Position numbers and translations under genes: made by a program. From Pseudomonas wenzhouensis (GTDB taxonomy: Bacteria > Pseudomonadota > Gammaproteobacteria > Pseudomonadales > Pseudomonadaceae): a stretch of 64,000 nt of DNA. Of this stretch, positions 10,447 to 49,193 are shown piece after piece. Positions within the stretch are counted from its first letter, which is position 1; each line of letters begins with the position of its first letter. The notes under the pieces were generated by a model, which was not told the DNA's origin, made no database searches, and saw only the letters and a list, made by a program, of their open reading frames with translations. Location: assembly GCF_021029445.1 (NCBI RefSeq), contig NZ_CP072610.1, positions 1,550,001-1,614,000 on the forward strand, given 5' to 3'.

Positions 10447-10478
10447 CTTGGGCCCGGATTACACCCGGCTACTGGCCA

Positions 10479-10499
10479 TCGCCCGCAAGCGGGCTCCTA
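10479..10499. repeat. Left arm of a REP pair split by the IS110-family element
   Basis: TCGCCCGCAAGCGGGCTCCT plus A matches the left arm of the intact pair at 12353. Its partner arm is at 11957-11978 on the other side of the insertion. A decayed family A arm (GCCCGGATTACACCCGG) lies just to its left. Confidence 0.8.
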
Positions 10500-10514
10500 T
10501 GTATGGACTCGCCC

Positions 10515-10752
10515 CCACTGTCAAACCTGCTTTTCAACACTGCTACCCGGCTGCATCTATGTATCAGGCCTATTCGAGGAAGCTGTCATCAGCTTCTGGC
10601 CAACATTGTGTGAGCTTGCGGTATGCCTATTACATTCAGACCTCGAAGGCCAGTAGGAGCCAAGGCATCAATCCGCAACGGTCTTACCTGGGGTCAATGT
10701 TTTCTAGCAGAGGTTGGAGCGACTTCGCGCCCCGGTGGCAGAACTCGGTGGA
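10515..10752 (-). ncRNA. Candidate guide (bridge/seek) RNA of the IS1111-type element
   Basis: This non-coding end follows the transposase stop. IS110/IS1111 elements are known to make a structured RNA from a non-coding end that pairs with target and donor DNA. On the minus strand I see a stem GGCCTTCGAGG / CCTCGAATAGGCC (10567-10579 with 10641-10651) and an internal hairpin GAAGCTG-ATGA-CAGCTTC (10580-10597). A 9-base segment GGCTCCTAC (10653-10661) is identical to REP sequence at the insertion point. CTATGTAT at 10557-10564 repeats the left junction (10497-10504), and TGTAAT at 10630-10635 (minus) matches the right tip. The RNA boundaries are not known. Confidence 0.5.
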
Positions 10753-11856
10753 TCAGTGACTCATTTCCGCCTGCCTGTCATTAACTGGCTGGCGTTGATA
10801 AGTCTGTTCATTCTGTAGCAGCACCCAGGCGATCCGTAGGTTGCGGTTGGCTAACCTCACCGCCGCCTCTTTGCGCCCCAGGCGACTCAGCCAGCCCAGC
10901 AAGCGGCGATCATCCGGTTGCTGCGAATCAGGCCGTAGTTGTCGGAGGACCGCATGCGCGCCCTGGATCATCAGGCTGCGCATGTAGCCATCGCCTCGCT
11001 TGCTCATCTTGCCCAGGCGGATCTTTTCTCCGCTGCTGTGCTGATCAGGCACCATGCCGAAGTAAGCCGCATATAAGCGGGCATTGGCGAAACGTTCAGG
11101 TTCGGTTTGCTTGGCCAGCAGCGCGGTGGCGATGATCGGGCCGACTCCGCGCACCGTCATCAGTCGTTTCGCGGTCTTGTCCGCGTTCGCAGCAGCTTCC
11201 AAGCGCCCGCTCAAGACATTGATGCGTTCGCCCAATTGCCGCCATTCACCCAGCAATTCGTCGATCAACTCCCGCAGTATCTCCGGCAGTGGCTGCGTTG
11301 CATCTTCCAGCACCCTCGGTATCACGTGGCTGATAGCCGCATCGCCTTGCGCCAGAGCCACGCCGTGCTCCAGCAGCAAACCGCGCATCTGATTACTCAT
11401 CGCCGTACGCCGACGCACATAACCCTGCCGAGCGCGATGCAGCGCCTGCATGGCCAGCGAGGCAGCGCTTTTGATGGGCACGGCTGAAATCTTGCTATCG
11501 CGACCGGCGCGCAAGATCGACAGGGCATCGTTACGATCATTCTTCGCACCGCTGCGGTGACCCTCGACGAGACGAGCCGGAAGAATCCGCGCCAGGTTGC
11601 CTTGCCCCTGTAGCTGCCGTGCCCACGCCTGAGCACCTGGGCCAGTTTCAACCAGCACGACGACACTCGGCGGCAACTTGCACAGAAACTCGTAGAATGC
11701 CTCACGCGACTTGATCCGCGCCTCGTAACGCACCTGACCAAGAACGTCTTCTCCCGCCACCTGAAAGACCCGCTTGGCAAGATCGACTGCCACTGTCGTG
11801 CAGGCCGATAGATCGTTTAAGGCCTGGGATTGATTAGTTGCTGTATGCTTTTTCAT
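10753..11856 (-). CDS. IS110-family transposase
   Basis: This is a 367-residue recombinase. The N-terminal RuvC-like DEDD domain shows VAVDLAK, VVLVETGPGA and KNDRNDALSIL with the expected acidic residues. The C-terminal domain has the helix-hairpin-helix MTVRGVGPIIATALL and the conserved serine region MVPDQHSSGEKIRLG. Length is normal for the family and I see no break, so the element may be active. The ATG at 11854-11856 has a GAGGG box that also lies in the right arm of a possible hairpin (see findings). Base use resembles the host, as expected for a Pseudomonas IS. Confidence 0.93.
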   Translation of the reverse strand: MKKHTATNQSQALNDLSACTTVAVDLAKRVFQVAGEDVLGQVRYEARIKSREAFYEFLCKLPPSVVVLVETGPGAQAWARQLQGQGNLARILPARLVEGHRSGAKNDRNDALSILRAGRDSKISAVPIKSAASLAMQALHRARQGYVRRRTAMSNQMRGLLLEHGVALAQGDAAISHVIPRVLEDATQPLPEILRELIDELLGEWRQLGERINVLSGRLEAAANADKTAKRLMTVRGVGPIIATALLAKQTEPERFANARLYAAYFGMVPDQHSSGEKIRLGKMSKRGDGYMRSLMIQGAHAVLRQLRPDSQQPDDRRLLGWLSRLGRKEAAVRLANRNLRIAWVLLQNEQTYQRQPVNDRQAEMSH

Positions 11857-11956
11857 TGACTCGCCCTCGCTGCCGTTGGCTTCTTAGACTGCCACCGTGG
11901 CGCATTGACGCCTCGGCGTGGGCGAGTCCATGTAATTACGGGAAGGGTGAATACCT

Positions 11957-20205: not shown

Positions 20206-20748
20206 CAATGTTTACGTCCTTGTTGATATGAGCGGGGGAGAGCATAGCGTCAAAGCGAAGGCGTCGGGCGTAGTCAAGATTGGGAATTCATGGCTACCCA
20301 GTAACCATGTCGGTAGCCAGCGCAGCCCTTTGCGAATCGGGAAGCGCTACTTAACTATCCACCAGCCCAAGACTCGTCTGACGGCGTGGGTAATCAGCAA
20401 GGCGTGATGGTTTTCTTGTGGTTGTGGTGAGCAGCAGCGCTGTCGGAACAGGCGAGTCCTGCAGCGGAGCAAGGCCGATAACAATGATGATCCCCGTGAT
20501 CGATTGAACGCTTGGCCCCCGCTGCGCGAACTACAGAATGGCCAGGGCCAAGCGCCCATCACAGGCCGGATATACGAATGCAACCGCGCTGACGACAGGT
20601 GCAAAAGCAAAGCTTTACTCACTACTTGTGGGGAGAGTCCATATACATTTGTTAGGCCATAACGCAGAGGCCAGGGTTGAAAAAATATGGCTGCTTTTTA
20701 TTAAGGCCATTTCTTTTTTCTAAGTACATATTGGCGGTCATTCCAAAG
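20206..20748. other. Gene-poor, lower-GC region next to an integron relic
   Basis: No convincing gene is present; a 91-codon frame on the minus strand at 20347-20622 has arginine- and serine-rich filler composition. Structure seen: inverted GCTTGGCCC/GGGCCAAGC (about 20509-20550) and, at 20651-20657, GTTAGGC, which on the minus strand is the GCCTAAC consensus of an attC site. GC content falls sharply towards 20748. Confidence 0.5.
20499..20657 (-). other. Possible decayed attC recombination site
   Basis: On the minus strand, downstream of the gene ending at 20749, GCCTAACAAAT fits the RYYYAAC start of attC. About 150 bases on, CCAAGCGTTCAAT nearly fits the GTTRRRY end (one mismatch). The inner GGCGCTTGGCCC and GGGCCAAGC can pair. 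It is longer than most attC sites, so this is tentative. Confidence 0.25.
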
Positions 20749-48868: not shown

Positions 48869-49193
48869 ATCGGGCTCTCGGATGCACGCGGAAAAGGCGC
48901 CTATATTAACAGCTGCGCGGCGCAAGCCCCAAAGGTAGCTGCGAGCCTCAAGCTACAAGCCGCAAGATGAAGCGCATGTGCCTGGGCGCGGTTGGCTTTG
49001 CCTCCGCTTGCAGCTCGGGGGCTGTAGCGTGTGGCCGCTTTGTGTGGTATAAAATGCGCCGCTTTACGGGTACTGCGCCCGAAAGCCTAAACCCACACAC
49101 GTATCGACACGGTTTCCTGGGTGCCTTACGACAAGTTCGAGGGTTGGAAGCTGGGATACGTGGAGGCCTAACCCGACTTATCAAGGAACTATC
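48869..49193 (+). promoter_or_regulatory. Promoter and leader region of rpsB
   Basis: The stretch between the divergent map and rpsB genes has repeats of AGCCTCAAGCTACAAGC type at 48935-48965. A TATAAA -10-like box lies at 49048-49053; the -35 is unclear. That leaves a leader of about 135 bases before rpsB. Long leaders upstream of rpsB are used for S2 autoregulation in related bacteria; here that is an inference. Confidence 0.5.

Follow-up and report, generated by a model that had tools for sequence, protein, structure and literature searches.

The window (the whole 64,000-nucleotide stretch of Pseudomonas wenzhouensis DNA analysed here) carries an insertion sequence lodged in a REP, and the question it raises is how the element finds such sites. 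A preliminary description, made from the letters alone, proposed that the non-coding end after the transposase gene specifies a bridge/seek RNA with a target guide and a donor guide, and that a guide programmed with REP sequence accounts for the REP targeting. Comparison with relatives supports both proposals, through a two-loop fold, guides that covary with target and donor, and an exact fit of the target guide at most insertion sites. The non-coding end very probably encodes an RNA of the IS1111 seek/bridge type, whose target loop and donor loop would guide the transposase.

The element has the features of the IS1111 group. Its subterminal inverted repeats are 12 bp long, with 3 and 5 outer bases beyond them. 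At the level of domain matches its transposase is a DEDD enzyme with a C-terminal Transposase_20 domain, and it scores 268 bits (cut-off 140) with the NCBIfam model NF033542, "IS110 family RNA-guided transposase". Non-coding DNA amounts to 253 bp downstream of the gene (10500-10752) against 80 bp upstream (11857-11936). A longer non-coding region downstream of the transposase gene is the IS1111 layout given in PMC11187229 (this and the other papers are cited from parts of their text), and the inset inverted repeats together with the 253 and 80 bp assign the window element to that layout. Seven near-identical copies occur in the genome itself (G000; a single contig of 4.45 Mb), and they share one specific target, all seven lying in GTAGGAGCC. 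In gene direction every copy reads GTA/ATTACATGGACTCGCCC...GGGCGAGTCCATACA/TAGGAGCC, with slashes at the element boundaries; the right-hand flank is the foot of a REP, in several REP versions, and the left flanks have little in common beyond GTA. Coordinates are collected in Table 1.

Table 1. Features of the insertion sequence and its candidate guide RNA (window positions).
Feature	Position	Strand	Remarks
IS1111-type (IS110 family) insertion sequence, 1437 bp	10500..11936	-	7 near-identical copies, identical end bases, differing flanks
Core TA flanking the element externally	10498-10499 and 11937-11938		
Transposase, 367 aa, DEDD_Tnp_IS110 and Transposase_20	10753..11856	-	Pfam PF01548 and PF02371
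Subterminal inverted repeat ATGGACTCGCCC, guide-RNA-side end	10503..10514	+	
Subterminal inverted repeat ATGGACTCGCCC, end upstream of transposase	11920..11931	-	
REP half adjoining guide-RNA end (GCCCGCAAGCGGGCTCCTA)	10481..10499		intact copy of the same REP from 12355
Candidate bridge/seek RNA domain, extent of covariance model R1	10540..10683	-	alignment A1, 18 sequences, 26 pairs, 99.1% of cells paired
Predicted target domain	10617..10677	-	stem A 10677-10673/10621-10617; stem B 10668-10664/10627-10623; apical stem C 10651-10648/10642-10639
Right-target guide GGCUCCUAC, 5' side of target loop	10653..10661	-	pairs with top-strand target GTAGGAGCC
UGUAAU, 3' side of target loop, probable left-target/core guide	10629..10634	-	GUAAU invariant; role putative
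Predicted donor domain	10553..10615	-	closing pairs 10615-10614/10554-10553; stem D 10601-10598/10570-10567; stem E 10596-10591/10584-10579
Left-donor guide AUACAUA, 3' side of donor loop	10558..10564	-	7/7 bases in 14/15 lineages, 6/7 in the other
Right-donor guide ACAAU, 5' side of donor loop	10605..10609	-	covaries with the tip upstream of the transposase gene

The short matches on which the preliminary description was built are all present, and two of them are guides. The nine-base REP match stands where it had been placed (GTAGGAGCC at 10653-10661, giving GGCTCCTAC on the minus strand), and so does CTATGTAT (RNA AUACAUAG), which contains the left-donor guide and whose sole two plus-strand occurrences in the window are at 10557-10564 and at the left junction, 10497-10504. 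Dinucleotide shuffles of 10515-10752 share at least nine bases with the REP in 142 of 5000 cases and at least eight in 542 of 5000; CTATGTAT or its complement appears in 11 of 5000. On their own these matches are weak to moderate evidence, suggestive and not decisive. The other two had been misread. GCTTGCGG (RNA CCGCAAGC), found at 10614-10621 and likened to the REP hairpin, is no guide: it is the 3' strand of the target-loop stem and the start of the donor-loop stem. Relatives have CCACG, CCGCG, TCGCG or GCGCG at its position, with the opposite strand matching, so that its resemblance to the REP hairpin is a coincidence. TGTAAT (11931-11936; complement ATTACA at 10629-10634) was rejected as a donor guide, since the RNA segment GUAAU is invariant in 18/18 sequences while the tips vary, relatives also having ATTGGAT, ATCAGAT, ATCGGAT, ATTGAAT or ATTGTAT. 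It resembles the right tip only because the window element's tip is ATTACAT.

Single-sequence folding carried no signal, its energy being no better than that of shuffles (z +0.77 for 10499-10752 and +0.55 for 10540-10680), and comparison across relatives was therefore used. It is the compensatory structural changes and the guide-target covariation among those relatives that raise the finding above chance. Relatives came from four sources: one scan of genome contigs (33 loci); two genus draws, which yielded 11 of 199 genomes at E 1e-60 and 12 of 398 at 1e-100, G000 being counted in both; a class draw with 8 of 369, the seven besides G000 being 38-42% identical; and a DNA search of three genomes. 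Both ends were found at 96 of the 126 loci, own genome included, and 30 loci were without recognisable ends. The 96 loci reduce to 69 distinct flank pairs; some loci duplicate one another, and identical short flanks merged a few that lie apart. The full-length relatives used have transposases 66-99% identical. The end patterns demanded the inverted repeats, AT near the left tip and a right-hand TA, and the guide pattern demanded a final AC; bases so demanded carry no weight because the search required them, and target positions T+1 to T+6 were unconstrained. For tests by lineage, each of 15 clusters was represented by its commonest guide and target (in one cluster L011 is grouped with five TH41 copies whose guide type differs); these lineages are not independent, as the elements are related. 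Truncated copies, for example in G097 and G181, were left out of the counts.

One locus needed separate treatment. L086, in G622, had appeared as a four-mismatch exception and was rejected as such: the last 73 bp of this element occur twice, and its outer junction is at TAGGAGCC, where it counts as exact among the 69 sites. The lineage analyses do not include it. The same element (L086/L097, G622:C1:1791868-1793377) lies in a tandem REP array, and at its inner junction, CATACA/TAGGCCTGATACATAG, the TAGG within its own guide RNA may have served as the joining site.

Comparison of these sequences establishes, as far as sequences can, the ends of the element, the structure of its non-coding end and the covariation of guides with target and donor. 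RNAalifold on alignment A1, made of the window element and 17 relatives, gave 26 pairs in six helices, with two stem-bounded internal loops holding the guides. This is nearly the fold drawn by hand, less one outer pair of stem A and with a two-pair stem closing the second loop; the conserved two-loop structure of seekRNAs and bridge RNAs is present. In A1, 99.1% of cells are paired, against 22.9-44.8% when partners are slid by 1-3 columns. Double-sided changes occur at 6 pairs, compared with 2.4 in shuffles (1 of 500 shuffles reaching it), and 18 cells are changed on both sides, compared with 3.3, bearing in mind that related sequences can exceed such shuffles without any structure. Further pair types, one of five pair measures, were not exceptional (11 compared with 9.4; 65 of 500 shuffles reach it). 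In stem A, all cells are paired (100%) and 3/5 pairs have double-sided changes, C-G becoming U-A at two pairs and a third occurring as G-C, A-U and C-G. Stem E has double-sided changes at 2/6 pairs; the closing pairs and stem D are invariant and so provide no covariation evidence. The slid control and the compensatory changes of stem A argue for a real fold. With E up to 0.1, covariance model R1 found ten matches in its own genome, of which seven, at 167.3 bits, are the seven copies and three score 25-33 bits; among distant relatives it gave 11 weak or moderate matches besides two strong ones. No curated Rfam model matched 10450-10800 at E up to 1.

The 5' side of the first loop holds a variable stretch with a UAC end, reading GGCUCCUAC in the window element, and it is here that the guide changes with the target, as the preliminary description had said it should if real. 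At 65 of the 69 distinct sites guide and target are exact reverse complements, and at the other four (L047, L063, L087, L111) there is one mismatch. Eight guide types spell GTAGGAGCC, GTAGGAGCT, GTAGGAGCG, GTAGCAGCT, GTAGGGTGG, GTAGGCTGG, GTAGGTTGG and GTAAGAGCG; for each of them its own target is the commonest, three types being represented by a single site each. Counted by lineage, 14/15 agree exactly, against a permuted mean of 2.33, and none of 100000 permutations reached this. T+1, T+3, T+4, T+5 and T+6 agree in 15/15 lineages and T+2 in 14/15. A scan of all variable columns against all target positions, with none chosen beforehand, put 10658:T+3, 10661:T+6, 10656:T+1, 10660:T+5 and 10659:T+4 within its top seven rows, at 15/15 each; 10657:T+2, at 14/15, is absent from that list, and some unrelated column pairs rank in between because the lineages are few and related. 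A tenth base matches at 1/69 sites (L007), so the guide seems to be nine bases long. Among the exceptions, L111 (G642) sits at GTAGGAGCC with the guide for GTAGGAGCT, and L047 at GTAGGAGCT with the guide for GTAGCAGCT.

The top-strand match is thus clear, and the bottom-strand segment GUAAU (10633-10629) is short. As it is invariant, covariation has no say in its role, and we infer that it serves as core or left guide. The base preceding GTA is T at 57/67 sites, and in several lineages the base preceding the left-target segment disagrees with the target.

Might the transposase protein itself recognise the REP hairpin, the guide-like matches being captured REP sequence or chance? The targets are mostly palindromic repeats, and the shuffle frequency of the nine-base match given above would also fit. 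The choice of repeat within single genomes bears on this, since hosts hold many GTAGGAGC sites of several kinds, which a REP-general protein reader should use roughly in proportion. Counts of GTAGGAGCC and of its G and T versions are 141/90/16 in G000, where insertions use the C class (7/7); 291/717/16 in G181 (C, 5/5); 671/487/15 in G103 (G, 3/3); 14/28/136 in G097 (T, 5/5); and 38/309/15 in G138 (G, 5/6). All five insertions of G181 are therefore in GTAGGAGCC despite the commoner GTAGGAGCG, and all three of G103 in GTAGGAGCG despite the commoner GTAGGAGCC; G128 has 6/6 in GTAGCAGCT although GTAGCAGC makes up 355 of 2301 GTAGSAGC sites. In all six genomes the class used is the class that the guide spells. 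If sites were chosen in proportion to their numbers, the six probabilities would multiply to about 10 to the minus 11.5, a rough figure because site contexts differ and the odd G138 site (GTAGGAACG, 1/6) was left out, and one to which G097 and G138 contribute little. The REP counts include guide copies inside the elements, of which one per copy was subtracted for the product, except for G128.

Insertions thus discriminate single bases between REP classes within one genome, and transposases 66-99% identical use eight targets, each spelled in the guide loop. Moreover, in G631, where the guide is CGCUCUUAC, 10/11 distinct sites are at GTAAGAGCG and one at GTAAAAGCG; these lie inside a dispersed repeat unlike a REP (11 flanks), and none of the 1088 occurrences of GTAGGAGC in that genome is used. 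Recognition of the hairpin by the protein is already disfavoured on these grounds, and we consider it highly improbable.

The retargeted relatives of G631 (L079, L084, L087, L098, L101, L104, L107, L110, L117, L119 and L121) occupy a repeat that is long and dispersed, not a short REP, and whose left side, ...TCGCTGTA/TAAGAGCGAAACC..., is conserved in 10/11 sites. Two elements from Burkholderiaceae MAGs (L023, L025) and one from Stutzerimonas chloritidismutans AW-1 (L018), with one site each, lie at the palindrome feet TAGGCTGGGATGAAG..., TAGGTTGGGGTAAGCC... and TAGGGTGGGCTTCAGCCCACC; palindromic repeats may accordingly be a preferred niche of the lineage.

The second loop holds segments that match the element's own joined ends, as the donor guides of seekRNAs and bridge RNAs do. 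The segment AUACAUA (10564-10558) is identical to the element's right tip plus core. Where one of the Burkholderiaceae elements has ATATATA instead, the segment has changed with it; the other has one mismatch. The right-donor guide agrees at 5/5 bases in 9/15 lineages and at 4/5 or more in 13/15, a total reached in 39 of 20000 permutations; elsewhere the pairs are CCAAU/ATTGG, CUGAU/ATCAG and CCGAU/ATCGG, while against its own tip the window element has 3/5 bases only, as in P. helleri. Joining the ends creates TTGACA-17-CATAAT. A perfect -35 lies 16-18 bases from that -10 in 3 of 10000 end shuffles, and the 15 lineages retain 4 to 6 of six bases. The inserted element has no promoter or terminator pattern, which says little, as 0.4 and 1.3 are expected by chance.

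A main role as a regulatory sRNA of the transposase, with the guide matches secondary, has a precedent in Ssr9 of ISPpu9, a sense sRNA of about 180 nt downstream of the transposase gene reported to anneal to the antisense Asr9 (PMC8450116, in part). Such a role does not predict that one loop covaries with the insertion site and the other with the element tips, and as the main function of this RNA we find it scarcely credible; regulatory and guide roles are not exclusive.

Taking the RNA as a guide, the following course of events may be proposed. The element would excise as a circle, by analogy with IS1111 and IS110 elements (parts of PMC11187229 and PMC11208160), and excision would build the junction promoter, able to transcribe the transposase and the RNA. 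In the target loop the 9-nt right-target guide would read GTAGGAGCC at the foot of the REP hairpin, with the short GUAAU segment facing the core and left side; the donor loop would pair with the circle's joined ends, through AUACAUA at the right end and ACAAU at the left. Guided by both loops, the transposase would then exchange strands at the TA core, joining circle to target. It is from published relatives that the element is credited with transcription, with binding and strand exchange, and with a working junction promoter.

The copies could also be fossils of RNA targeting that once worked, and no longer move. A TAG stop in one of the seven transposase frames and the imperfect right-donor guide of the window element would agree with this, which we nevertheless hold to be unlikely: six of the seven frames are open, and recent movement is indicated by the seven almost identical copies at different sites and by five G622 copies with 99% identical transposases.

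On a tree of 36 transposases the eight guides require nine changes, the minimum possible being seven. We lean towards the reading that one IS1111 lineage keeps re-aiming, the 9-nt right-target guide alone setting the site (the left side fixed at GUAAU) and having changed at least seven times from one repeat class to another, with a jump that led away from REPs to a dispersed repeat unrelated to them; each element would thus ride whichever abundant repeat its guide names. If true, this lineage offers a ready natural series in which to measure how RNA-guided transposons change targets. Base pairing would explain both the element's REP sites and the choice of other repeats by its relatives; natural variation separates RNA-guided from protein-guided choice; and the guides with their cognate sites are ready material on natural target switching, on guide length and on the tolerance of mismatches.

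Two further features of the window are recorded here. A right-end remnant of a different IS1111-type element lies at 20375-20645, with the end GGGGAGAGTCCATATA present and a guide-RNA fold found by covariance model at 20456-20594 (23.1 bits); its likeness to the complete element begins only about where the transposase gene ends, and its flank ATTTGTTAGGC is one that we take to resemble an integron attC site. G000 contains a copy whose transposase is 325 aa long (L134), along with other right-end pieces truncated at different points (L135 and two in L136). A t44 RNA (Rfam RF00127, 76.3 bits) is at 49076-49172.

Among known systems, as described in parts of the papers cited, ISPa11 is alike in its IS1111 layout, the non-coding region downstream of the transposase gene, the REP target and, with GUAAU taken as the probable bottom-strand segment, a top-strand match that precedes the bottom-strand one; it targets P. 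aeruginosa REPs, and a 96-nt seekRNA was found with its transposase (PMC11187229). The window element differs in that its lineage has a guide series covering eight targets. REP insertion is described for ISPa11, ISPpu9 and ISPpu10 in PMC1525189, and by that description ISPpu10 and ISPpu9 of P. putida KT2440 resemble the window element in using one insertion position in REPs, with 2-bp repeats; the repeat of ISPpu9 is AG (PMC8450116), whereas the shared core here is TA. The IS621 bridge RNA likewise has target and donor internal loops with two guide segments each, and a junction promoter (PMC11208160). It lies upstream of the transposase gene, whereas the RNA of the window element lies downstream, with the top-strand guide first, as published for IS1111 and unlike IS621. 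Likeness of the window transposase to the IS621 and ISCro4 chains in the PDB is confined to residues 228-300. ISPa25, from a plasmid record, belongs to the same transposase family and is 38.6% identical to it; none of the 586 plasmid records matched reached 60% transposase identity. Natural re-direction through changed target-matching bases has been described for ISEc11/ISXne4 (PMC11187229), one pair there against eight guide types on one tree here, and no listed title dealt with guide switching within a REP-targeting lineage in a literature search that took in a minority of subscription journals. The kind of RNA is already known, since REP-targeting IS1111 elements with such RNAs have been published (ISPa11 and ISPpu10, both among six elements with target and donor guides in a figure of PMC11208160). 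What the window element appears to add is an unusually clear natural series of guide switches within one lineage, which extends the biology of bridge/seek RNAs and founds no new class.
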